From NCBI GenBank assembly GCA_023621975.1, contig JAMOAC010000270.1:1-8614 (forward strand): DNA of 8,614 bases, in the 5' to 3' direction. The stretch is from Bacillota bacterium (GTDB lineage Bacteria > Bacillota_A > Clostridia > Acetivibrionales > DUMB01). Each line of letters starts with the position of its first letter. Position 1 is the first letter of the stretch. The notes under the pieces are model-generated. The model had not been told where the DNA came from and did no database searches. It worked only from the letters and a program-made list of their open reading frames with translations. Below, one piece after another: positions 1 through 8,614 of this stretch. The position numbers were made by a program, and so were the translations under genes.

Positions 1-818
1 ACATCTCCAATGTAAATATACTCGGGAATGGCAGTGGAACATATATATCCTTCAAAAGCAGGAACGGAAGAAAGAACCATTTTTTGATAAGCGTTCATAT
101 CGGAAACGCTCATTATCTCGTTGAGGACCTTTCTGAAATAACGATCCATTTCCGAGGCTTTTTCCCTGAAACTGCTCTGAAGGCGTTTCATTTCCTCATT
201 AAACCTGACGGATTCCTTGAAACGATCCATTTCGGCAGATTCATTTTCCAGTCTGACCTTTGCCTTATAAAGCAGCTCCTGCTGTTCACGGTATCTCCTG
301 AATGCAGCATGCAGCAGTATTCTTAAATTACGTGCACGTAGCAGGGCTGTATTTAACTCGCTTTCCATGGAAGAAAACCGGCCGGCAACAATCTTTTCGA
401 GCATCTTACGAATAAAGCCTTTCGTAATGTTATTCTGCAGGTATGCCTCAAGATCCTCATGGTACCCGTGGTAAGACCTTTTTTCCCTATGGTCGATGGC
501 AGCCATGGTGTTGTTATGTGTATTTTTGAGGTCGTTTACTTTTGTATTTAAACGATTATTTATTTCCGCCAGATTTAAACGATTCCGGTCATAAATCCGT
601 TTCTTGTCAGCCTCGTATTTTTCCTTTATCTTGGTGAGTTCTTTTTGATAAGCTCCACATAGCTCTTTAAGGAATTGCATGACAAGCACTGCTGAATGCT
701 CGTTTATTTTTCCCTTCCAGCTTTTCCATAACGACCAGTCCCGGTTCAACAGCATTTCCTGCTTTTTTCCATCAACTATTATTTCTGTAACTTTCCTAAT
801 AATCTTATTGTCGTCCAT
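1..818 (-). CDS. Long coiled-coil protein of unknown function, C-terminus beyond the left edge
   Basis: Reading leftward from an ATG at 818 gives 272 uninterrupted codons with no stop before the window ends, so this is the N-terminal part of a longer protein. I do not recognise a family. Residues 1-45 are a small Trp-rich head (W28, W31, W34). Residues about 55-245 are almost entirely charged helix, with heptad-like Leu/Met/Ile spacing typical of a coiled coil. From about residue 250 the character changes to a Pro- and aromatic-containing segment (SVPAFEGYICSTAIPEYIYI), which suggests that a globular domain is beginning at the cut. No signal peptide or membrane segment is visible. The ATG at 818 is preferred because GGGGGT lies 7 bases upstream. 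An in-frame ATG at 848 would add ten residues but has no ribosome binding site. The gene follows the ParB-like gene after 44 bases and is probably the fourth or fifth gene of the same operon. A further ATPase domain downstream is possible but is only a guess. Confidence 0.82.
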   Translation of the reverse strand, partial: MDDNKIIRKVTEIIVDGKKQEMLLNRDWSLWKSWKGKINEHSAVLVMQFLKELCGAYQKELTKIKEKYEADKKRIYDRNRLNLAEINNRLNTKVNDLKNTHNNTMAAIDHREKRSYHGYHEDLEAYLQNNITKGFIRKMLEKIVAGRFSSMESELNTALLRARNLRILLHAAFRRYREQQELLYKAKVRLENESAEMDRFKESVRFNEEMKRLQSSFREKASEMDRYFRKVLNEIMSVSDMNAYQKMVLSSVPAFEGYICSTAIPEYIYIGD

Positions 819-825
819 TTCCTCT

Positions 826-831
826 ACCCCC
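826..831 (-). promoter_or_regulatory. Ribosome binding site (GGGGGT) of the left-edge coiled-coil gene
   Basis: On the minus strand GGGGGT ends 7 bases before the ATG at 818. It can pair with the anti-Shine-Dalgarno sequence using one G-U wobble in place of GGAGGT. It supports 818 as the start over the in-frame ATG at 848, which has only AT/C-rich sequence in front of it. Confidence 0.5.
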
Positions 832-862
832 GGTTTGTTATTTGTCATTGTTGGAATGTCGT

Positions 863-2020
863 TCAGGTGTTTTCCGCAGGTGTCGAAATACGTTTTCGAG
901 TTCCTATCACCCTGACAGGTATATCAAAACCCATTTCGCGGGCTGCAAGGATCCTGTGGCGCCCATTTTCCTGGAATTCATAATAGCCATCACATTCCTT
1001 TACTCTTGGCAAATTTGTCGGATCAAAGTAGATGGATGCGCACTTTCCCAGCCTAGGATCTTCGACCAGTTCATCCAAGCTGCGTCCTGAAGCAAGTTGC
1101 GCCTGCACCTCGGGAATTAATGCTGTAATTGCTTTGAAAGAATCAGCCGTCCCGTCGGTGCAATGCTGAGTCCAAAAGATGGAGGGATCTGAAATTTCAC
1201 TGTTGCCCAGCCGGATACCTTCTATTTCATTGGGATTTATTGTTCGTATCTCCGGCGAGTCGAACTCGTTCTCTTTAAACTGCCTGGAATCATAGCTTTC
1301 CCAGTCCCTCAAAAAAGCTTCAAAATTATCTCCTTTCACAAATCCATGAGGACCGATTTCAAACGAACCAAACCGTCGTCCGGCAGGTTCTCTCTTTTTT
1401 AGCATGCCAGGCAAATGATTGAAGAATCCTTTTACCCCTGTTTCGTTTAAATTCCCATATGCAGCAGGCCCGCTTCCAACGAAACCCTGTACACCCGTCC
1501 GTGAAACAAATCCTTCAGAGTATGATTTTCCAGTCGCCGGCACGCCCATACTTCGCAACAGCTGCAGGCGGGCTTGCTCTCCGGAATTCATACGAGCCGC
1601 AAGATCTGCCATAAAAGCGTTTACATTGCTGCCTGATCTCTTTTTCTGCAGCTCCTGCAGCTTTGACAGGTTTTCTTCTTCAACAGCTTCGTAGTGTTCT
1701 ATTTCGCGCACAGCCTCCATCTTGCGGTTGTTTATCAATTCAAGCTGCCGGTCTGCTTCCGCCAGATCGGCTTCAGCAGCTTCAAGCATCGCTCTTGCAG
1801 CAAATAATTCTGCCCTGGCGCTTTTCAAGTCGCCAGCGGAAATATCTTTTTCATCAGTTTCGGACGCGGTTTTCTCAAGCCTGGTATAACGGGTATAAGC
1901 GGCCACCAATCTTGCTCTGGCAGATTCAACCGCCTTCCGGCATTCGATTTGTCTTAGCTTAGCATTTTCGCCCTGTTCTATTAAATCTTCCGCTTCACGT
2001 GTTATTTCACGGATTTTCAT
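863..2020 (-). CDS. Coiled-coil protein with C-terminal ParB/sulfiredoxin-like domain
   Basis: 385 residues in three parts. Residues 1-128 form a long charged, Ala-rich helix (coiled coil) with no signal peptide. Residues about 129-230 are a linker with repeated Gly-Phe pairs (residues 170, 179, 198 and 226) and a duplicated TGVxGF unit 19 residues apart. Residues about 255-378 are compact, with a conserved-looking core of FWTQH (282-286), SLDELVEDPRLGKC (314-327), YYEF (346-349) and NGRHRILAARE (352-362), followed by IPVRVIG. The GRHR-(x)-AA stretch followed by a beta strand resembles box II of the ParB/Srx fold, which carries the nucleotide- or DNA-binding residues in ParB and occurs as a nuclease-type tip in polymorphic toxins. 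The family match is from memory of motifs; nuclease activity is inference. The start at 2020 has AGGGAGA 5 bases upstream. It lies 23 bases after the 170-residue gene in the HerA operon, so it may be a DNA-binding partner of the ATPase or an exported effector. Confidence 0.88.
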   Translation of the reverse strand: MKIREITREAEDLIEQGENAKLRQIECRKAVESARARLVAAYTRYTRLEKTASETDEKDISAGDLKSARAELFAARAMLEAAEADLAEADRQLELINNRKMEAVREIEHYEAVEEENLSKLQELQKKRSGSNVNAFMADLAARMNSGEQARLQLLRSMGVPATGKSYSEGFVSRTGVQGFVGSGPAAYGNLNETGVKGFFNHLPGMLKKREPAGRRFGSFEIGPHGFVKGDNFEAFLRDWESYDSRQFKENEFDSPEIRTINPNEIEGIRLGNSEISDPSIFWTQHCTDGTADSFKAITALIPEVQAQLASGRSLDELVEDPRLGKCASIYFDPTNLPRVKECDGYYEFQENGRHRILAAREMGFDIPVRVIGTRKRISTPAENT

Positions 2021-2025
2021 AATGT

Positions 2026-2032
2026 TCTCCCT
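2026..2032 (-). promoter_or_regulatory. Ribosome binding site (AGGGAGA) of the ParB-like gene
   Basis: AGGGAGA on the minus strand ends 5 bases before the ATG at 2020 and fixes that start. It lies in the 23-base gap after the stop of the 170-residue gene, so the ParB-like gene has its own initiation signal within the operon. Confidence 0.6.
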
Positions 2033-2043
2033 GCAAGAAAAAT

Positions 2044-2556
2044 TTATCCAAAAATGCTTTCAATGGAACTTTTAAGCGATTCAACCTCTTTTTTGGTATC
2101 TTCAATAATGGATTCAGCTTCGGACACGAATTCCTCGTATTCAGCAGCGCTGCTTCTCATCCTGTCAGCTGCGCTTTCTGCATTTCTTCGGCCAATATCC
2201 GTAATTCTGGCCATTTCGCCTAATTTTTCCTCTGCATCCTTAACTTTTCCCAATTCTTCAGAAGCTGAATCTGAGGCTTCACCTTCAATCCTTTCCATTT
2301 CTGCCTCCTTCGTTTCAACCTCTTCCCTGAATGCAGACTTAAAATCTGCACTGTATCCGTATTCTGCATTCCGGACAGCAGAGACATCATCCTCGTCCAT
2401 TGATGTATCAATCCCATCGAGAAGGGACTTAATTTCCCTTGCATCAGCCTCCAGCCGTTCACCGGCTTCAACAGCCTCTCTTCCAAGCAAGCTGGTCGCC
2501 TTCTCTGATTTTTTCAAGGATTCCACTTTTCTTGCTTCCCATGATATTTCCCCCAT
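2044..2556 (-). CDS. Small acidic coiled-coil protein, HerA-operon partner
   Basis: 170 residues, not assignable to a known family. It is almost wholly helical, rich in Glu, Lys, Ser and Ala, contains no Cys or Pro, and has a single Trp (W6). Two helical stretches (about 8-48 and 72-165) are separated by an Asp-rich turn near residues 50-58 (DTSMDEDD). This could form a helical hairpin broadly like small adaptor proteins of secretion or SMC-like machines. The W-x-G turn of WXG100 proteins is absent, so membership of that family is not supported. No signal peptide or membrane segment is seen. The ATG lies only 6 bases after the TAG of the ATPase gene and lacks a good ribosome binding site, so translation is probably coupled to the ATPase. 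A GTG at codon 11 is a less likely alternative start. The spacing implies it is made together with the ATPase and may bridge it to the ParB-like protein, which is inference. Confidence 0.85.
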   Translation of the reverse strand: MGEISWEARKVESLKKSEKATSLLGREAVEAGERLEADAREIKSLLDGIDTSMDEDDVSAVRNAEYGYSADFKSAFREEVETKEAEMERIEGEASDSASEELGKVKDAEEKLGEMARITDIGRRNAESAADRMRSSAAEYEEFVSEAESIIEDTKKEVESLKSSIESIFG

Positions 2557-2562
2557 TCTAAG

Positions 2563-5500
2563 CTATTTGGATTTGGGCAATATATTTTTTGCTTTGAATA
2601 TAGTCACCGCACGTTCAATTTCCTGGCGAACCTGCAATGCGTTTTTTAAATGCGGGCTTGCCATAATAAACAACTGCTGGGCAATAAGCAAAGCACCCTT
2701 TTGGATTTCGTTCACAGCATGTACCATTTTCTGAATCCGGGAAAGTTCCACACCGGACGATGCAAGCTGGCTGAAATCCATGAAACCGGTAATTCCCAGA
2801 CGGATCCAGTGCTTTTTACGGTCATGGATGCGTCTTGCAAGATTAATGCAGTCAACAATGGCATCGTATGCTTTCATGAACTTCTCAGAAGACAAGTACC
2901 TGGTTTTCAGCTCCATTTTCAGCTGTCCTACATAATCAGCCATGTTTTTAATAATATTCTGTTGCTCGCGATTGTCTTCCCATCCGGGTGTTGCTGTCAG
3001 TTCCTCGGACATCTCATAAACCCGCGCTTCGAGCTTCTTTATTTCAACCTCCCTGATGTTTATTTCCCTGAAATGCTCAATAATGCTTTCAACCTTGTCA
3101 CTAAGCCTCATGTATTCCCGGCTGAACTTGGTACTCTCAATAATGAAACTTCTTTCACATATTTCCCTGTATACTTCCCGTCCTTTCATAATTTCAACAA
3201 GCTCTTCATCAGCAGGCGGGGAGGTAATTTTGCTTCGTTCATTTTCATCAGGCACGCAGTCACCGTTTGCATAATATGAACAGTTCGCCTTGCACCATTC
3301 TATATCCAGGTTATCCCTGTCACATTGTCCGGTTGACCATCTGCCACACCATTCATGCATTTGAATGGTAAACGGTCTCATTAATCCCTCGTAGCTTATA
3401 AGTGCCCTGCCAACATTAAAAGTCGCCATCTCTTCAATTTGAATCGGGCTCGCTGCCATGGTGCTTCCCAGCAGCACACGGTCATCAGCGGAAGTAATAC
3501 GCAGTCCTATTTTTAAACCTGTGTTTTTGATCACTTCCTGGGCCATTACTGTAGGCAGCTGATCGGCAATTACGATGCCCTCCTGAAGAGCCCGAACCTC
3601 CGCAAGCATTCTGACGATGAACGTAGTTGCAGCTTGCTTGGGATTCGCCTCGGCGCCATATGCCTCTTCAGCTTCAGACCCAATGAGGTTATGCGCCTCT
3701 TCGATGAATATGACATGGCGGGCATAGTCCTTGTCATGGTGCGGGTTAACTTTCAGGGCTTCGCGAATCAATGTGCAAAGCATTAATGTTAAAAAGTTTG
3801 CCGGGCCGGTTCCCATGGATTCCAGCTCTATTATTGCAGGAATCGTAAGCCACTTTTCCGGGGGAATTGTCGAGCTTGGAACATCAAACACATCGCCCAT
3901 CTCGCGGCGAAGCAGGCTGCCAATGCGAACCTTGAGTGCAGATTCAAGGTTGCCCCGGATTTCATCGCTGTAAGTCGTTGTTTTAAGTTCGTCTTCCAGG
4001 CGCTTGTAAAGCATCGACATTGTGGGGAACTTGAGCGTGGTTTCGTCTGTATACACGGTTTCCGGCGTCCATCCCAAATCGCGATACACGGCTTCAATTG
4101 CCTGATCAAGGAGGAACGGCATCGGGTTTTCCAGCGGAAAAGCACCTTCGAAAACTGAGCACAACCTCCTGATGTGTTCTGCCAGCATCAGCCCCTTTGG
4201 AAATTCGAAGGGGTTTATATGCAACGGAAAGGCCATATCTGCATTCGGCGAGAATACATATACGCCTTCCATGCCTTTTTGCTTCACAAGGGCACGGTAT
4301 TCCTGTTTTGCAGGCTCAAGAACCAGGAACGGAATCCCATGTTTTCTCCAAAGTGTGGATGTTAAATGATGCATGGTGTTTGTCTTGCCTGAACCGGGAG
4401 CACCGGCGATAAAAGCATGCTTTGAAAGATTCCTGAGGGGAAAGTACACGTCATAGCCGTTGTCATCCGTACCAAGGTACAATCCTTCTTCCGCCTTTAC
4501 GGCTTTTGGAGCGGTTTCCTTTCTTATTTGAATTACCTCACCCTCATAAAGAGCCGGGAACCTGAAAAACGGAGCCACCTCTTCAAGAGTGAACAAAGTG
4601 GGAAGATACCTTAGCTTGTAATTTTGGGATTCCTCCTTGCAGATAATCAGTCCCCTGCCGGTTTTCTGCATAATGATTTTTTTGTGCCTGTTATATAAGT
4701 CAACGGTTTCTCCCGCTTCAAGAAATGCGTGCATGCCAAATTTTCCGGAGAAGGTGCCGATTTCATAGCTTCCCTTCATCAAGGCCTCGGCCCCGGCCGC
4801 ATCCAATACCACTGCGGAGTTTTCACGATCATTGGCAAAAACAAACAGGTTGGCAATGAAGTGTGGCGAAGAATCCACTTTATTTAAAAGATCTTCGTAT
4901 CCTTTTAAGACGTTCTCGGCCTCAAAGTCTCTCTGATCCAATATACCTGCCTTGGAATATTGCCTTTCCCTTAATACAGAAATCGGTTTTCTCAAGGCTT
5001 CCCTGAGATCCTCACTTTTTTCTGCGGGGTAAAGGTCGATTCGATAGAGCATTTGCCTGTCAAGGGATTCCATCAGTTTGCACATATTATAAAGACGCCC
5101 GTCTTCATTCATTTCCCATTGGGGAACAGTATAATACCCGCCGTCTTCGCCGGCCATTTCAAGGGATGGCTTGATAAAAACTTCCTTCTTGATAAGGGTA
5201 CTGCATACTGAAAAGGAAGCATCCCTGATCTTACATTCTTCCAGAAAACCTTCAAATGTACAGGGAATAAATTTGAAATAGTCTGACAGTGTTGAAGAGG
5301 ATACCAATTGTGGTACGTTATTTAATTTTTCTTCTTCACCACGAACTTCGAATAGAATTTTCAGCTTGCTGCCTTTTGCACCGATAGCATATGTACCGTC
5401 TTCCCTTTGTCCGTCGTAAAAATAATATAAATGAACAGAAATTCCGGAAAGTGCTCCTTTTCGATTCCACTGGCGTAAAAAAGCAAGATGTTTCTTAAGA

Positions 5501-5595
5501 ACACCATCTACTCCGTTTCCTTCCAGTGAAGCGTATTTGTTAAGGCTCAAATCCGGAATCACTTCAATTTTATAGCAAAGTTCCTTGACCCCCAT
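2563..5595 (-). CDS. HerA/FtsK-superfamily (DUF87-type) ATPase, 1010 residues
   Basis: A large ATPase of the HerA branch of the FtsK/HerA superfamily, whose members assemble as hexamers and pump DNA or protein substrates. Residues 1-380 are an N-terminal region without a family I can name; residues 345-390 are strand-rich. The motor core is clear: Walker A GAPGSGKT (398-405), the LEPAKQEYR motif (426-434) typical of HerA/VirB4-like ATPases, Walker B HVIFIEEAH (627-635) with the catalytic Glu pair, and the ADQLPT motif (677-682) followed by a polar strand GLKIGLRITSADDR (693-706). After the core, five cysteines (750, 758, 768, 772, 780) suggest a small metal-binding insert, followed by a coiled coil (about 825-900) and a helical tail. 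The start at 5595 has TAAGGAGA 6 bases upstream. It heads the operon unless the small overlapping ORF upstream is real. No NurA-type nuclease gene is adjacent, which argues against the classical HerA-NurA end-resection pair. The substrate is unknown. Confidence 0.95.
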   Translation of the reverse strand: MGVKELCYKIEVIPDLSLNKYASLEGNGVDGVLKKHLAFLRQWNRKGALSGISVHLYYFYDGQREDGTYAIGAKGSKLKILFEVRGEEEKLNNVPQLVSSSTLSDYFKFIPCTFEGFLEECKIRDASFSVCSTLIKKEVFIKPSLEMAGEDGGYYTVPQWEMNEDGRLYNMCKLMESLDRQMLYRIDLYPAEKSEDLREALRKPISVLRERQYSKAGILDQRDFEAENVLKGYEDLLNKVDSSPHFIANLFVFANDRENSAVVLDAAGAEALMKGSYEIGTFSGKFGMHAFLEAGETVDLYNRHKKIIMQKTGRGLIICKEESQNYKLRYLPTLFTLEEVAPFFRFPALYEGEVIQIRKETAPKAVKAEEGLYLGTDDNGYDVYFPLRNLSKHAFIAGAPGSGKTNTMHHLTSTLWRKHGIPFLVLEPAKQEYRALVKQKGMEGVYVFSPNADMAFPLHINPFEFPKGLMLAEHIRRLCSVFEGAFPLENPMPFLLDQAIEAVYRDLGWTPETVYTDETTLKFPTMSMLYKRLEDELKTTTYSDEIRGNLESALKVRIGSLLRREMGDVFDVPSSTIPPEKWLTIPAIIELESMGTGPANFLTLMLCTLIREALKVNPHHDKDYARHVIFIEEAHNLIGSEAEEAYGAEANPKQAATTFIVRMLAEVRALQEGIVIADQLPTVMAQEVIKNTGLKIGLRITSADDRVLLGSTMAASPIQIEEMATFNVGRALISYEGLMRPFTIQMHEWCGRWSTGQCDRDNLDIEWCKANCSYYANGDCVPDENERSKITSPPADEELVEIMKGREVYREICERSFIIESTKFSREYMRLSDKVESIIEHFREINIREVEIKKLEARVYEMSEELTATPGWEDNREQQNIIKNMADYVGQLKMELKTRYLSSEKFMKAYDAIVDCINLARRIHDRKKHWIRLGITGFMDFSQLASSGVELSRIQKMVHAVNEIQKGALLIAQQLFIMASPHLKNALQVRQEIERAVTIFKAKNILPKSK

Positions 5596-5746
5596 TTTTT
5601 CTCTCCTTAATCCAAATCCATATCGAAGAAAACTTTTTTATGAACTCTTCAAAATAACCTGTATATATTCCTAAAACGGATAACAGCTGATTTGTACCTT
5701 TTGTTGCTCTATTGAAAACAGAAAAGTTGCCTGGAGAGTAAGCCAT
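5570..5746 (-). CDS. Possible 58-residue leader ORF overlapping the ATPase start
   Basis: An ATG at 5746 opens 58 codons ending in TAA at 5572-5570, so the ORF overlaps the first 26 bases of the ATPase gene in another frame. The peptide begins MAYSPGNFSVFNRATKG, then has a hydrophobic and aromatic stretch (about residues 21-46, including GIYTGYFEEFIKKF and IWIWI) and a basic tail. The ribosome binding site is weak (GAAGAAG close to the ATG). In favour of a real gene are its place directly behind a good promoter, its use of most of an otherwise long leader, and its overlap with the next gene, as is common in bacterial operons. Against it are its small size, the poor initiation signal and the lack of any recognised family. 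It could be a small membrane-associated or amphipathic subunit, a leader peptide, or chance. Confidence 0.4.
   Translation of the reverse strand: MAYSPGNFSVFNRATKGTNQLLSVLGIYTGYFEEFIKKFSSIWIWIKERKNGGQGTLL
5602..5609 (-). promoter_or_regulatory. Ribosome binding site (TAAGGAGA) of the HerA-like ATPase gene
   Basis: TAAGGAGA on the minus strand ends 6 bases before the ATG at 5595, which is near-ideal spacing and confirms the start. The site lies inside the 3' end of the small ORF 5746-5570, an arrangement that would allow translational coupling if that ORF is translated. Confidence 0.8.
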
Positions 5747-5794
5747 ATCTTCTTCAGCAATTTTCCCCGATATTCACTTTCTTCCGGTAATTTT

Positions 5795-5829
5795 CCTGTT
5801 AAGCTGGAAAGAAAACTCAATTAAACAGG
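5795..5829 (-). repeat. Inverted repeat at the predicted transcription start of the ATPase operon
   Basis: The arms CCTGTTAA (5795-5802) and TTAAACAGG (5821-5829) are complementary except for one extra base, around an 18-base centre. The right arm begins 4 bases downstream of the -10 element and covers the expected start point. It could be a repressor operator or, as RNA, a hairpin at the 5' end of the transcript. The pairing is seen directly; the role is inferred. Confidence 0.45.
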
Positions 5830-5832
5830 TTT

Positions 5833-5862
5833 ATTCTACCATAAATAGGCTGATATTTTCAA
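5833..5862 (-). promoter_or_regulatory. Sigma-A type promoter with extended -10 for the ATPase operon
   Basis: On the minus strand TTGAAA (5862-5857) and TAGAAT (5838-5833) each match the vegetative consensus at 5 of 6 positions and are separated by 18 bases. TGG directly before TAGAAT forms an extended -10 (TGn). Transcription would begin near 5826, leaving a leader of about 230 bases before the ATPase ATG, or about 80 bases before the small ORF at 5746. Confidence 0.6.
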
Positions 5863-6055
5863 TACAGGTCATACATACTCTGTGCTACATTCATTTTTGT
5901 TTATATTTTTGCATCTACTATTCTTATTGCAAAATATGAATAAAACAGCCGCATTATCATAAGAGTTGGCAGCAGAATCCCAGGAAATGAAACATGATAT
6001 GCAGAAAGACTGGAACAGGGTCAACAAGATGTGTGTAATAAATACGCCTTATCAT
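5863..6055. other. AT-rich spacer with no supported gene
   Basis: This lies between the end of the arginase-like gene and the ATPase promoter. I see no intrinsic terminator (no GC-rich hairpin followed by a T-run on the minus strand) and no family-recognisable ORF. A 32-codon plus-strand ORF starts at 5987 but runs into the arginase-like gene and is not convincing. Confidence 0.5.
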
Positions 6056-6757
6056 TCATGCCATCAAATAATTGATCTGGTTTGATAAGCTGATATTTTC
6101 CGTGTCCCATTTTCTTACAGGGCAGTTCAATATTTCATATGGAATTCCCATTGCATCAATGAATCGGGCAAACTTATCATCCAGCCACGGTGGAGTCCAT
6201 GCGCCCGACCTGCATATATGTATTGCAGATACCATGAAGTTTTCATCCAAATCGTCAAATTTGCAATATCCAATATTATAAATGCTGTTTATCTGCTTGA
6301 AATACTCAGGCTTCTCCATTGTATAAGGGCTGTAAAAAATATAAGCTTCATTGATTTGATTATCTTTAAAGAGCTTGCCAAGCCAGTTGGAACAGTTGAC
6401 TTCAAAGTTCAGGGAGGATAGACCGCCGTAGCCAAGGTCAGCGTGGGCATCAAACAGGCAAACTGTTCTGCAGTTGTTTTCTTTTGCTATTTTATATGAC
6501 CAGGCATGGGAGTCTGTAACATATGCTTTAGTGTGCCTGTCAAACACGAAACGCTCCCTTATCCTCTCCCAGAATGTTTTCCACTCAGGAGAGAGCCTGT
6601 ACGACTCCTTAATGTCCCTTCCCAATGCCTTTTCCTGGATATATCTTTTATACCAAAGGTCAACCAGGCTCCTGTTGTTTTCAATAAAAGAACCCCAATT
6701 CTCCTTTTTGGTATAGATATAATAATCCCAGTCTACAGATAGCAGGCATTCTTTCAC
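6056..6757 (-). CDS. Arginase-fold protein of the UPF0489 type (possible peptide arginase)
   Basis: 233 residues from a GTG at 6757. Key motifs numbered from that start are SVDWDYY (7-13), TDSHAWSY (81-88), LFDAHADLGYGG (101-112) with the metal-binding D103-x-H105-x-D107 pattern of the arginase/ureohydrolase fold, NCSNWL (121-126) and IHICRSGAWTPPW (179-191). The DSH, DAHxDLGYGG and N-C-x-NWL motifs together match my knowledge of UPF0489 proteins. Some of these act on arginine inside ribosomally made peptides, converting it to ornithine with Mn(II). That activity is an inference here, since no precursor peptide or maturation enzyme is visible nearby. The open frame extends to a GTG at 6841 (261 residues), but that codon has no ribosome binding site. 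At 6757 a GGGGG lies 8 bases upstream and the first strand then sits at the N-terminus. No signal peptide is seen. It is separated from both neighbours by long spacers, so it is probably transcribed alone. Confidence 0.82.
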   Translation of the reverse strand: MKECLLSVDWDYYIYTKKENWGSFIENNRSLVDLWYKRYIQEKALGRDIKESYRLSPEWKTFWERIRERFVFDRHTKAYVTDSHAWSYKIAKENNCRTVCLFDAHADLGYGGLSSLNFEVNCSNWLGKLFKDNQINEAYIFYSPYTMEKPEYFKQINSIYNIGYCKFDDLDENFMVSAIHICRSGAWTPPWLDDKFARFIDAMGIPYEILNCPVRKWDTENISLSNQINYLMA

Positions 6758-6765
6758 AGCACCAT

Positions 6766-6770
6766 CCCCC
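6766..6770 (-). promoter_or_regulatory. Candidate ribosome binding site (GGGGG) deciding the arginase-like start
   Basis: GGGGG on the minus strand lies 8 bases before the GTG at 6757 and can pair with CCUCC through one G-U wobble. The alternative GTG at 6841 is preceded by a TTTACAGCA repeat with no purine-rich site. This favours the shorter protein but is not conclusive. Confidence 0.4.
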
Positions 6771-6848
6771 AAAATGAAATTGCCACATCCGTTTGACCGA
6801 CGCCAAAAACATCTTTCCTTGAGAAACTTATGCGACCTCACGCAGCTG

Positions 6849-6876
6849 TGCTGTAAACATGTAGCCTTGCTGTAAA
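6849..6876. repeat. Direct repeat TGCTGTAAA, two copies
   Basis: TGCTGTAAA occurs at 6849-6857 and 6868-6876, 19 bases apart, just upstream of the longer arginase-like ORF. Spacing of roughly two helical turns could suit a dimeric regulator. The function is unknown and chance is possible. Confidence 0.4.
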
Positions 6877-6916
6877 GGAATATATATGCAAAATAATTTT
6901 ATAAAGGTTAAATCCT

Positions 6917-6937
6917 GAATTGTTCCGCAAGAATTGT
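6917..6937. repeat. Direct repeat GAATTGT, two copies
   Basis: GAATTGT at 6917-6923 and 6931-6937 flanks TCCGCAA. The internal TTCCGCAA (6923-6930) recurs at 7013-7020 inside the nested inverted repeat, so this leader contains more internal repetition than the other spacers. No function is assignable. Confidence 0.35.
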
Positions 6938-6976
6938 GGTACTGTATTGATTTATGTGAAATATATCATATGTACC

Positions 6977-7042
6977 CTCAAGCAAAAGCCACCTCACACA
7001 GATTCCACCAGTTTCCGCAAAAATTAACGGAAGTTGCTTGAG
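6977..7042 (-). ncRNA. Nested inverted repeat, candidate structured leader RNA
   Basis: A perfect 9-base outer stem is formed by CTCAAGCAA (6977-6985) and TTGCTTGAG (7034-7042). Inside it, TTCCG (7013-7017) pairs with CGGAA (7028-7032) around a 10-base loop, and a 27-base G-rich (minus-strand) segment lies between the inner stem and one outer arm. This would fold as a closed element with one hairpin and a large bulge or third arm, in a transcript from the promoter at 7107-7080 leading to the arginase-like gene. I tried to match TPP, guanidine, c-di-GMP, fluoride and THF riboswitch cores and none fits. No T-run follows, so it is not a plain terminator. A 47-codon ORF (7051-6908) crosses the element but lacks a ribosome binding site. 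Whether the element acts as RNA, as an operator, or not at all is open. Confidence 0.4.
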
Positions 7043-7079
7043 TCTTAACATATGCCGTGATAAAATGCTTATACTTATT

Positions 7080-7107
7080 GATATATACTTTTTTCATTAA
7101 AAGTCAA
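7080..7107 (-). promoter_or_regulatory. Candidate promoter for the arginase-like gene
   Basis: TTGACT (7107-7102, 5 of 6 to consensus) and TATATC (7085-7080, 4 of 6) are separated by 16 bases on the minus strand. Transcription would begin near 7073 and give a leader of over 300 bases to the GTG at 6757, carrying the nested inverted repeat at 7042-6977. The -35 is good but the -10 is mediocre, and the region is AT-rich, so confidence is modest. Confidence 0.35.
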
Positions 7108-7234
7108 TTAATGACAGTGCCGATTTAAGAGAATAATTTCGGATATGCCCAAAATGTCCCTGAAAAATCCATGTTATTTGAAAAATATCTGATTTCTCAC
7201 TGCGTTTTTAATAGCTCGTTCACTTTTCCATAAG
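7108..7234. other. Spacer downstream of the flavodoxin gene, nothing recognised
   Basis: I see no ORF worth calling. A short ATAGCT/AGCTAT inverted repeat sits just past the flavodoxin stop (about 7210-7239), but its stem is short, its loop is long and no T-run follows on the coding strand, so it is not called as a terminator. Confidence 0.4.
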
Positions 7235-7738
7235 CTATACTTCAGTCTGCCCTTCTTCTTGGAGGCTTCCAAATTCTGCTTCAATAATCTTTTTGAAAAA
7301 TTCAACCGCACAGTTAATATCATTTTCATTTGGGTGTCCTTTTGCGATTCCGCCTATTAATTTAAAAGGCCCAAATGTATCAAAGCCCCTGCATCCATAC
7401 GTTCCGAGCAAGCGGCAGGATTTATCTGCAATGATCTTTTTCATATCCTTTGTATAATCTCCTTTAACACCATAGGTATTTATGAGAAATACAGGTTTTT
7501 TGCCTGGCAGGTTGTTCCGGGCAAATTCTACAACCTTCTTACTGAAATTGTTAAAATATGTACCTGATGCAAAGCCTATTATATCGTAATCGGATAAATC
7601 CGCCTCCTTGCATTCGACCACATTGATTAGTTTTACATCATGCAGTTCCTTAACAGTATCTCCAAATTCCTTGATTGCATCCAAAAGTTTCTTCGTGTTC
7701 CCATGATGCTGGGAATAGTATGCAATCGCAACCTTCAT
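7235..7738 (-). CDS. Flavodoxin family protein (FMN-binding electron carrier)
   Basis: 167 residues, the usual length for a single-domain flavodoxin. The N-terminal strand MKVAIAYYSQ runs into SQHHGNTKK (9-17), which is the FMN phosphate-binding loop. The next conserved pieces are YDIIGFASGTYF (51-62), the loop contacting the isoalloxazine ring, and FLINTYGVKG (84-93). Near the end, GTYGCRGFDTFGPF (112-125) resembles the C-terminal part of clostridial flavodoxin-like proteins. It should be a cytoplasmic FMN-dependent electron carrier or small oxidoreductase; the redox partner cannot be read from the context. The ATG at 7738 is chosen because AGGAGGT lies 6 bases upstream; an in-frame ATG at 7768 would place that site inside the coding region. 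Long spacers on both sides suggest a monocistronic gene. Nothing links it functionally to the neighbouring restriction or HerA genes. Confidence 0.92.
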   Translation of the reverse strand: MKVAIAYYSQHHGNTKKLLDAIKEFGDTVKELHDVKLINVVECKEADLSDYDIIGFASGTYFNNFSKKVVEFARNNLPGKKPVFLINTYGVKGDYTKDMKKIIADKSCRLLGTYGCRGFDTFGPFKLIGGIAKGHPNENDINCAVEFFKKIIEAEFGSLQEEGQTEV

Positions 7739-7744
7739 AAGAAT

Positions 7745-7751
7745 ACCTCCT
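7745..7751 (-). promoter_or_regulatory. Ribosome binding site (AGGAGGT) fixing the flavodoxin start
   Basis: A perfect AGGAGGT on the minus strand ends 6 bases before the ATG at 7738. It rules out the longer in-frame start at 7768. Confidence 0.9.
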
Positions 7752-7814
7752 GATTTTGCTTTCATCAAAAAAAATTAATTATTTGCGCTTTTTGAATTGC
7801 TATTTCATCATAAT

Positions 7815-7851
7815 GTTATATAACCTTGATATAGTTACAATAGAATATTCT
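7815..7851. promoter_or_regulatory. Two short palindromes upstream of the flavodoxin gene
   Basis: GTTATATAAC (7815-7824) and AGAATATTCT (7842-7851) are perfect 10-base palindromes with centres 27 bases apart. Between them lies TTGATATAGTTACAA (7827-7841), with TTG/CAA ends. They sit 77-113 bases upstream of the flavodoxin ATG and could be regulator sites. The region is very AT-rich, so chance palindromes are likely enough to keep confidence low. No convincing -35/-10 pair was found here. Confidence 0.25.
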
Positions 7852-7956
7852 CATATAAAATTCTTCTATAAGGAGAACTATTTTTATAATATTTGAAACG
7901 ACTGCCAAACATTAATTTACCAAAATAAAACAGAGAATTAAAACAGGGTCTGATCG

Positions 7957-8614
7957 TTAATAGCGTACTATAAATTCTATATCTTCTTCTATTTTAAACT
8001 CTATAGATAATAATCTTATATAGTTTATTATATCTTGTGCACTTAAATTAGTTTCTATATATAAATCTTTTGCTAGTTTTTCCCCTTTTCTCATATTATT
8101 TTGATCTTTCGAAAGTAATCTTTTAAAGTTGCTATTATTCAATAATGAATAAAATAATTCTTTATCTAAATCCAATAAAAATGAACACGTCTTAAGTAAC
8201 ATCTCTTTCCATGTAGAAACTGCAATTTTATCACCATCAATAATAAGTGCACTTGGTTTATATCCAGTAACTTTTATATCGTCCATAATTGAATACTCTA
8301 TCCCCGGAACTAAGTTATCTTGATTTACATTAACATAATTATCAGTTGGAAGTGGCCAAATTTCATTGGCTACTTCATATAATTTTTCTGCTCTGTCAAT
8401 TATAGTATCTTTATTCCATACATCATAATATTTTGCAATATCCCTTGTTATTTGAATATTGGAGTTTTTATAAAATTCCTTTTTTTCTTCAAAGCTTTTA
8501 TTTGATATTTCAGAGTTATAATTTGTAATTGTCAGATTTCCAATTGTATCTTTGTATAATTTATGTATTTCATCCCCGTCTCTACCTAAGTCTATATTCC
8601 ATTTTGGTGTGAGA
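7957..8614 (-). CDS. GmrSD-type (DUF262/DUF1524) restriction protein, C-terminal fragment
   Basis: The frame is open from the right edge to TAA at 7959-7957, giving 218 residues of a protein whose N-terminus is outside the window. Residues 1-88 of the fragment contain TIGNLTIT (23-30), YNSEISNKSFEEKK (32-45), SNIQITRDI (51-59), IIDRAEKL (71-78) and EIWPLP (84-89). These are the pattern I know from the back half of DUF1524, the HNH-type nuclease domain of GmrSD-like type IV restriction enzymes; the catalytic His motif should lie just outside the window. Residues about 112-218 form a separate C-terminal domain with KPSALIIDG, STWKEMLLK and LYIETNLSAQDII, which resembles an accessory domain found at the end of many restriction proteins. 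GmrSD enzymes cut DNA bearing modified, often glucosylated, cytosines, so the role is phage defence. The Met at 8286 is internal, not a start. Codons are markedly AT-rich compared with the HerA operon. Confidence 0.85.
   Translation of the reverse strand, partial: LTPKWNIDLGRDGDEIHKLYKDTIGNLTITNYNSEISNKSFEEKKEFYKNSNIQITRDIAKYYDVWNKDTIIDRAEKLYEVANEIWPLPTDNYVNVNQDNLVPGIEYSIMDDIKVTGYKPSALIIDGDKIAVSTWKEMLLKTCSFLLDLDKELFYSLLNNSNFKRLLSKDQNNMRKGEKLAKDLYIETNLSAQDIINYIRLLSIEFKIEEDIEFIVRY

Follow-up and report, generated by a model that had tools for sequence, protein, structure and literature searches.

The stretch of DNA considered here (the window) comprises 8,614 nucleotides and is contig JAMOAC010000270.1, positions 1 to 8,614, of the assembly GCA_023621975.1, from a member of the Bacillota in the Acetivibrionales. 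It carries four consecutive minus-strand open reading frames (ORFs) that make up an operon, read leftward in the order ATPase, small helical protein, toxin-family protein and fragment of a second motor, and referred to below as genes 1 to 4. These four genes form the left-hand portion of a larger cluster that recurs in other genomes and is truncated by the window edge. Judged from sequence comparisons, it is rather probable that the operon belongs to a type VII-related system of sporadic occurrence, which handles antibacterial polymorphic toxins and, most likely, exports them. The gene set and its conservation, the modularity of the toxins, the co-variation of toxin and immunity-like genes in relatives, the motor motifs and the occurrence of regulatory proteins at many loci are directly supported. 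An initial annotation of the same DNA had offered type VII-like export of a toxin-like cargo as one of its options, and this has become the favoured reading on the evidence of polymorphic tips, co-varying immunity-like genes and an EssC/EccC-like second motor.

The operon and its relatives in other genomes

The proposal of a four-gene operon made in the initial annotation is borne out both by the positions of the ORFs and by their recurrence in relatives. The genes are separated by 6, 23 and 14 bases, the last of these becoming the 44 bases originally given if gene 4 begins at the ATG at 818, which is preceded by a ribosome-binding-like GGGGGTAGAGG. A genome scan with 17 homologues of the ATPase yielded 46 loci, to which one from a scan of viral contigs (L047) was added, and the proteins of the resulting 47 loci were clustered with those of the window. 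The 46 loci are mostly from metagenome-assembled genomes named as Lachnospiraceae, Oscillospiraceae and other clostridia, many of them of gut or rumen origin by name, with single records from Fibrobacterales, Spirochaetales and others. Cultured commensals among the carriers include, by their record names, Ruminococcus bromii 5AMG and Butyrivibrio sp. AC2005. The recurrent set consists of the HerA ATPase, a helical protein of ~160 residues, a protein with a constant N-terminus and a variable C-terminus, a small gene and a protein of 1100-1340 residues. The order ATPase, small protein, toxin-family protein is repeated in nine other loci (L002-L007, L009, L014 and L017) and therefore the four genes are not chance ORFs; the identical gene set is found in different orders at further loci.

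Profile searches detected the small helical protein in 35 of the 41 closer loci, from which three plasmid relatives (L073-L075) are excluded, and the second motor in 29 of the 41, counting two fragments at locus edges. Each of the two profiles was built from 21 loci, with the window added in the case of gene 2. Not used in training were 14 of the 35 loci with the small protein and 8 of the 29 with the second motor, nor, for the second motor, the window itself. The second motor of L018 lies just beyond the fetched stretch, and eight of the other 11 gaps are contig ends or short contigs, which leaves L011, L034 and L046 not so explained. Wherever carrier genomes were searched, the best second-motor match was on the contig of the ATPase (10/10). 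The system is rare: at E <= 1e-100, two carriers were found among 392 genomes of one order and one among 300 genomes of one family, with the carrier at the centre included in each count.

A longer view of the cluster is given by L003 and its continuation L048, where the second motor is followed by a one-helix protein, two unknown proteins, a radical-SAM protein, a Ser/Thr kinase, a further unknown protein, an FHA protein and a ClpB-like AAA+ protein. Over the 48 clustered stretches, many of which are too short to show them, the radical-SAM cluster occurred 15 times, the kinase 14, the AAA+ protein 10 and PP2C seven times, all four clusters being named from representatives. The closest NCBIfam family of the radical-SAM protein is NrdG, at a score below cut-off; NrdG-like radical-SAM genes (Fer4_12) were seen at L003 21041-21652 and L030 4047-4646. 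There is a vWA protein in L047, where a C-C bond lyase and a PRTase_2/TRSP pair follow, a TerD gene (E 2.2e-62) in L057, upstream of L021, and a phage-type integrase upstream in L003. The TerD gene is the tested member of a run of genes of ~150-210 residues that precedes the cluster at L057 8826-13090 (Butyrivibrio sp. AC2005).

The toxin family

The N-terminus of gene 3 is common to 42 of its 60 homologues and all 861 pairs align there, at a median identity of 75%. The last 150 residues of the same 42 proteins fall into 12 clusters; one of these (P0155, P0169) is made up of proteins that stop short of the tip, and P0140 is perhaps fused to its neighbour, which leaves about ten tips. The types of tip found on the constant N-terminus include ADP-ribosyltransferase, glutamine deamidase, protease-like and ParB-like, those recognised by Pfam among gene 3 homologues being PF03496, PF15644 and PF13529. 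At the loci the named tips are Gln_amidase (L003, L047), Endonuclea_NS_2 (L022) and ADPrib_exo_Tox (L024), the last two on N-terminal families other than that of the window, and HExxH-type motifs were read by eye in further tips. The exchange runs in both directions. L003 and L017 have ATPases that are 88% and toxin N-termini that are 91% identical with unrelated tips, and L005 and L010 have unrelated toxin N-termini with tips that are 52% identical. A constant N-terminus with variable C-terminal toxin domains is the pattern of polymorphic toxins, and it is the pattern found here.

In the 11 carrier genomes there were six strong matches to the window-type N-terminus (E <= 2.7e-39), all at the ATPase locus, and two weak ones (E 2e-4 and 8e-4) in long ORFs away from it. 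Four of the five carrier genomes with no strong match have a different N-terminal family in that place (L010, L021, L030, L038); the fifth (G382) is outside that comparison.

The tip of the window's own protein was described in the initial annotation as a ParB-like domain. The module is real, with an intact NGRHR motif, but gene 3 has no Pfam family of any kind at E <= 1, hence no Pfam ParB match, and the module recurs within a toxin family as one of several tips or as an internal module. It is thus not a partition protein. P0122 has the window-type N-terminus and an internal ParB-like module followed by a domain with an HExxH motif, and P0135 has the same two parts followed by a Gln_amidase tip. 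The ParB-like module forms the C-terminus of P0142, P0143 and other short proteins, which end within ~10 residues of the end of the window protein; the N-terminus of P0142 is short and of another kind, and it matches WXG100 below threshold (E 0.025). The ParB-like tip had no match in a plasmid collection and one in 392 genomes, at a contig edge where no downstream gene is readable.

The window protein may thus be either a toxin with a ParB-like tip or a cargo from which a further tip has been lost. The second alternative, in which the toxin tip and its immunity gene were deleted and the ParB-like module is a pre-tip, is compatible with the favoured explanation, and the further domains of P0122 and P0135 agree with it, as does the start of gene 4 only 14-44 bases after the gene 3 stop with no gene between. 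The short proteins in which the module is itself the C-terminus, together with the intact NGRHR motif, speak against such an unarmed cargo, which is held to be rather doubtful.

The ParB-like motif is also one of the grounds for supposing that the operon acts on DNA, in partition, conjugation or DNA-directed defence, with HerA/FtsK-type motors moving DNA and the ParB-like protein as a DNA-binding adaptor. The HerA and FtsK families do include DNA translocases, and distant relatives of gene 1 occur in 44 plasmid records, one of them near mobilisation genes. Against this, there are about ten alternative tips, of which the ParB-like part is just one, it has no Pfam ParB match, and the curated families nearest to the second motor are those of secretion ATPases. 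The seven window proteins scanned against Pfam gave no ParA-type match, the 47 loci not having been searched for ParA or relaxases. A role of this kind is judged very improbable, and the segregation machine suggested in the initial annotation finds no support.

Some further proteins with ParB-like parts are recorded here for their own sake. In P0173 an HExxH-bearing stretch precedes a ParB-like module at the C-terminus, which makes it possibly a two-warhead protein. P0139, known from a single 3381-base contig, joins a Pfam integrase-type N-terminus to the ParB-like tip and may be an artefact of assembly or insertion. The gene directly after a distant HerA ATPase in a member of the Chloroflexi (Anaerolineae; L043 12704-13573) encodes a coiled-coil protein ending in a short, ParB-like NGRHRI motif, the similarity to the window tip extending over 21 residues only (E 2e-5 in a two-sequence comparison).

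Immunity-like genes

The genes that follow the toxins were compared for 27 hand-picked toxins. These come from the 26 of 47 loci in which a toxin-family gene, or a gene at the toxin position, is complete; truncated genes and that of the window were excluded. An ORF of at least 50 residues follows the toxin in 26 of the 27 relatives, although the shortest of these may be spurious. Of the 351 pairs that can be formed, 16 have a common tip, and in 10 of these the following ORFs are homologous; among pairs with no common tip none of 335 had homologous following ORFs, including none of 61 with a common N-terminus. Thus the small following genes behave like cognate immunity genes, being homologous only where the tips match. 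The rule is broken by the six tip-sharing pairs with no homologous following gene, four of which are cross-comparisons of two Gln_amidase groups, while two involve L036, which lacks such an ORF.

Two of the following genes could be named. The Endonuclea_NS_2 toxin of L022 (E 6.6e-22) is followed by an 'Immunity protein YezG-like' protein (PF04634, E 1.4e-7) and the toxin of L021 by a DUF7675 protein (E 1.5e-27); eight other following genes that were scanned gave no family above cut-off. YezG is linked to type VII immunity of the EsaD/EsaG type. Nuclease toxins with immunity proteins are described for type VIIb secretion, as EsaD/EsaG, in the available text of PMC9484751.

The second motor

Described initially as another long helical protein, gene 4 does have a helical N-terminus but is, by its matches and its place, the truncated N-terminus of a second ATPase, of FtsK/EssC-like type. 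Full-length relatives at this position have 1100-1340 residues (~1200) and combine a coiled coil at the N-terminus with an FtsK_SpoIIIE domain (E 8.1e-28 for the L003 protein), and the gene 4 fragment occupies the operon position of these motors. It matches a profile of 21 full-length relatives, of which the window is not one, at E 3e-7, and the L017 protein by BLAST at E 1.3e-7 (23% identity), both scores being open to inflation by coiled-coil composition. The fragment is cut at PEYIYIGD, which resembles VPDYVMLGD and similar stretches in relatives. Three ATPase-like regions were read in the second-motor alignment, with a Walker A motif only in the middle one.

The closest NCBIfam families of three second motors are EssC/EccC (E 3.7e-28 for L003, 1.6e-30 for L038 and 9.8e-28 for L047), at 97-106 bits against cut-offs of 509-778, and the DNA translocase FtsK family gave 3.1e-6 and 6.9e-9 for the first two and was not listed for the third. 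The best sequence relatives in the PDB are 4nh0 (E 5.5e-47), YukB (2.6e-37) and EccC5 (4.5e-35), whereas a DNA translocase coupling protein reached 1.5e-21 and FtsK 6.6e-18; 4nh0 is deposited as FtsK/SpoIIIE, and we take it to be EccC. Comparison with two EssC proteins of carrier genomes gave an alignment of 439 columns (residues 347-833, E 1.2e-21) that covers two EssC domains.

The HerA-type ATPase and the small helical protein

Gene 1 has a conserved N-terminal region of ~370 residues with no Pfam match, a DUF87/HerA motor (residues about 373-750; E 2.3e-9 in a Pfam scan) and a variable C-terminal region. The initial annotation had seen a HerA/FtsK-superfamily ATPase with intact Walker A and B motifs, and this holds, the key residues being invariant in an alignment of 59 rows (G398, P400, G401, G403, K404, T405, E632-N636 and D678-P681); ADQLP is found at residue 677. 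Homologues are numerous, with 1474 at E <= 0.001 among 7995 candidates scored, and hydropathy predicted no membrane helix in 43 of 49 HerA ATPases. Scores against HerA-type families in NCBIfam are far under the cut-offs, that for CedD being 50 bits against a 600-bit cut-off. Single-sequence searches of viral contigs with gene 1 and with the ParB-like tip confirmed nothing, and a search of the viral collection with the ATPase alignment gave the one contig L047.

HerA-like relatives on plasmids of Streptomyces, Rhodococcus and Priestia (L073, L074 and L075) lie at loci with no match to the small-protein or toxin N-terminus profiles, and the Rhodococcus protein itself gives a weak second-motor match (E 7e-5). 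Neighbours of each of these genes are a small gene, whose product in L073 and L074 shows a membrane helix by eye, and genes for longer low-complexity proteins. These sets are perhaps a simpler, one-motor relative.

The main rival to an export system is an intracellular effector system similar to abortive infection, in which the motors, with the kinase, phosphatase, FHA and AAA+ proteins, sense invasion and free the toxin in the cell's own cytoplasm, the small genes being antitoxins and nothing being exported. Both motors are predicted to be soluble in most members, the kinase, PP2C, vWA and AAA+ proteins and the TerD (L057) or C-C bond lyase and PRTase_2/TRSP genes (L047) are reminiscent of stress or conflict systems, and the best PADLOC match of gene 1 is Mad8 (E 1e-15). 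However, it is in exported polymorphic toxins that a constant N-terminus goes with swapped tips and cognate small genes, one toxin-immunity pair is type VII-like, the closest curated families of the second motor are EssC/EccC, and the PADLOC scan gave no match below E 0.029 for genes 2-4. An intracellular system is judged unlikely. The Mad8-like match is also all that was found for the defence machine put forward in the initial annotation, there being no Mad partners among the other three genes. Partition, conjugation and MADS-type defence were each considered and rejected, with no Pfam ParB match for gene 3, no ParA-type match among the seven window proteins scanned and no Mad partners among genes 2-4.

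The product of gene 2 is 41% identical to its homologue in L002 (E 8e-27) and has no Pfam family above cut-off. Its WXG100 match reaches only E 0.068, which is below cut-off, and none of the 22 small proteins of its family reached the WXG100 cut-off; EspB_PE was matched by one of the 22, among the families listed (best 25 of 41). The sub-threshold matches of gene 2 to EspB_PE, WXG100 and YwqH-like families were set aside and not used as evidence. Matches of gene 2 and of the toxin N-terminus to PDB sequences (best E 0.0003 and 0.003) were to helical or coiled-coil proteins (designed bundles, V-type ATPase subunit I, SMC1A and others) and were treated as matches of composition.

Proposed mechanism and its difficulties

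Under the favoured explanation gene 3 would be the cargo, its constant helical N-terminus serving as targeting signal for an interchangeable tip that is ParB-like here. Gene 2 would be its small helical partner, pairing with the cargo N-terminus in the role that WXG100/Lap proteins have for LXG toxins. Gene 4, complete in relatives, would be a coiled-coil motor with EssC/EccC-like ATPase domains and gene 1 an additional HerA-type motor; both may recognise the complex of cargo and partner and drive its passage across the membrane, one selecting and the other driving, with lineage-specific membrane proteins as candidate anchors or passage. The kinase, phosphatase and FHA proteins, the ClpB-like AAA+ protein and the NrdG-like radical-SAM protein may control assembly or recycling, with phosphorylation as the putative control of assembly, and the exported toxins would be aimed at competing bacteria. 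Export itself, its target, the role of each motor and the order of events are inferred.

Several observations weigh against this explanation, and its weakest point is the missing conserved channel. No membrane helix was predicted by hydropathy in 26 of 29 second motors (three have one, and some ORFs are incomplete), and the same method detects membrane helices in both EssC proteins. No cluster of membrane proteins spans more than a few loci. As the motors mostly have no predicted helices and membrane proteins of wide occurrence were not found among the clusters, a channel is absent from the picture. The middle domain of the second motor by itself aligns with housekeeping FtsK (2.2e-25, over 255 columns and one domain) at a better E value than that of the longer EssC alignment (1.2e-21). 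In a tree of active FtsK-type domains the second motors form their own clade (84/95), and as the tree favours neither EssC nor FtsK as the nearer, descent from EssC is claimed only weakly. The window toxin has no gene between it and gene 4, hence no adjacent immunity gene. The loci were gathered by the HerA ATPase only, and second motors or toxins that occur without HerA lie outside this sampling. According to the initial annotation, ATPase homologues that lack the partner genes would speak against a system. The small partner is present in most closer loci, as given above, but in none of six distant HerA loci (L039, L041-L045), which are from Chloroflexi, Armatimonadetes-type bacteria and Paenacidovorax; a weak second-motor match in a 495-residue ORF of L041 and L042 (E 1e-4) was not counted. 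It follows that the HerA family is broader than this system.

A bolder version of the favoured explanation, which we hold to be rather doubtful, is that the cluster represents a separate class of protein-toxin exporter, unlike every named secretion type. Two soluble motors in tandem, one HerA-type and one EssC-like with a coiled-coil stalk, would act on the helical toxin together with its partner. Ser/Thr phosphorylation would be the switch, a ClpB-like unfoldase and a radical-SAM enzyme resembling glycyl-radical activases would serve the motors, and such exporters would be spreading among anaerobic gut bacteria and sharing toxin cassettes with type VII systems.

To our knowledge few killing machines are known for gut and rumen clostridia, which compete densely; a WXG100 gene was not found in 9 of the 11 carrier genomes examined. 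A toxin system of anaerobes with two motors, probably under the control of phosphorylation, would broaden the concept of type VII secretion and provide named, testable genes. If true, it also raises the question of why protein toxins should be tied to a HerA motor, a type known elsewhere for pumping DNA.

Other features of the window

The positions of all features are collected in Table 1. The promoter claimed in the initial annotation does exist as a site, one of the window's two top-scoring (10/12), but promoter-like sites as a class are no more frequent than chance (21 against 18.0 in shuffles, standard deviation 4.9). The GmrSD-like gene noted earlier at the right edge was found again. The 261-residue ORF shows no visible tie to the toxin cluster, and a tRNA search of the window found none.

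Table 1. Positions of the operon, its motifs and the neighbouring genes in the window
Feature	Position	Strand	Basis
Gene 1, HerA/FtsK-superfamily ATPase, 1010 residues	2563..5595	-	DUF87/HerA match
Walker A of gene 1, GAPGSGKT, residues 398-405	4381..4404	-	read directly; conserved in alignment
Walker B of gene 1, VIFIEEAHN, residues 628-636	3688..3714	-	E632-N636 invariant in alignment
Gene 2, small helical protein, 170 residues, candidate cargo partner	2044..2556	-	homologues in relatives
Gene 3, polymorphic toxin-family protein, 385 residues	863..2020	-	homologue comparison
Constant N-terminal part of gene 3 (residues 1-170) with ETDE loop; may be a trafficking domain	1511..2020	-	alignment
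ParB-like module of gene 3 with NGRHRILAAREMG motif; forms the C-terminus here but lies within the protein in some relatives	863..1405	-	homologue comparison
Gene 4, coiled-coil N-terminal part (282 residues) of FtsK/EssC-like ATPase, open at window edge	3..848 (start 848 or 818)	-	profile match, operon position
Promoter-like site, TTGAAA-18-TAGAAT, TG before second hexamer	5833..5862	-	motif score
261-residue ORF, GTG start assumed	6056-6841	-	no Pfam match at E <= 1
Flavodoxin-domain protein	7235-7768	-	PF12724, E 6e-9
GmrSD-type protein, C-terminal part, cut by window edge	7957-8613	-	PF07510 (GmrSD_C), E 1.3e-17

Comparison with known systems

ParABS partition differs from the cluster in that gene 3 has no Pfam match to ParB and the seven window proteins none to ParA. 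HerA, CedD and Mad8 have in common with gene 1 a DUF87 motor with intact Walker motifs, but gene 1 has the extra N-terminal region of 370 residues and is tied to toxins and an EssC-like motor. The MADS system of Mad8 differs further in that no Mad partners are found among genes 2-4, the PADLOC scan having covered the window genes and not the rest of the relatives' clusters. Ter/TerY-type stress systems offer another comparison, as some loci lie beside TerD, C-C bond lyase, PRTase_2/TRSP or vWA genes (L057, L047), but the recurrent part here is a toxin-family gene with two motors, and Ter genes were not searched for at all loci.

Closer likenesses are found with type VII secretion. The LXG toxins of type VIIb with YezG-like immunity have a helical N-terminus of similar length and the same pair of Endonuclea_NS_2 tip and YezG-like protein as L022, whereas none of the 12 toxin-family proteins scanned against Pfam matched LXG, and they have N-terminal families of their own, that of the window with an ETDE loop. 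Type VII secretion systems (T7SSs) have been divided into T7SSa-T7SSj, with eight subtypes beyond a and b; every one contains a WXG100 protein and the ATPase bound to the membrane (Garrett et al. 2024; PMC11217815, available text). Kinases, phosphatases and FHA proteins are frequent in those subtypes, T7SSc also has a vWA protein, and the ubiquitin-like TsxB/YukD is absent from T7SSd (same text). The present cluster is similar in having a second motor whose closest curated families are EssC/EccC, a small helical protein, toxins with a helical N-terminus, variable C-terminus and immunity, and at many loci kinase, phosphatase (PP2C), FHA and vWA proteins like those reported there. It differs in the long coiled-coil N-terminus of its second motor with, for the most part, no predicted membrane helix (26/29), in small proteins below the WXG100 cut-off (0/22) and in the HerA-type ATPase that belongs to it; the term HerA is absent from the main text of PMC11217815. 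The cluster thus fits none of the described type VII types that could be compared.

Among the 11 carrier genomes (genome completeness not given), YukC, which marks T7SSb only, was found in none, WXG100 in two and YukD in two. The WXG100 genes are on contigs other than that of the system in both genomes, and YukD lies near the WXG100 genes in G001 and on contigs other than the system's in G008. By these counts most carriers probably lack a classical T7SS.

In the literature searched, which leaves out most subscription journals, the gene set was not found described. The nearest printed hint found is that of the mobile 'YueA-like' ATPases, which have three HerA/FtsK domains with only the middle one active and occur with solo WXG domains, in a list of lineages that excludes firmicutes (PMC3482391, available text).

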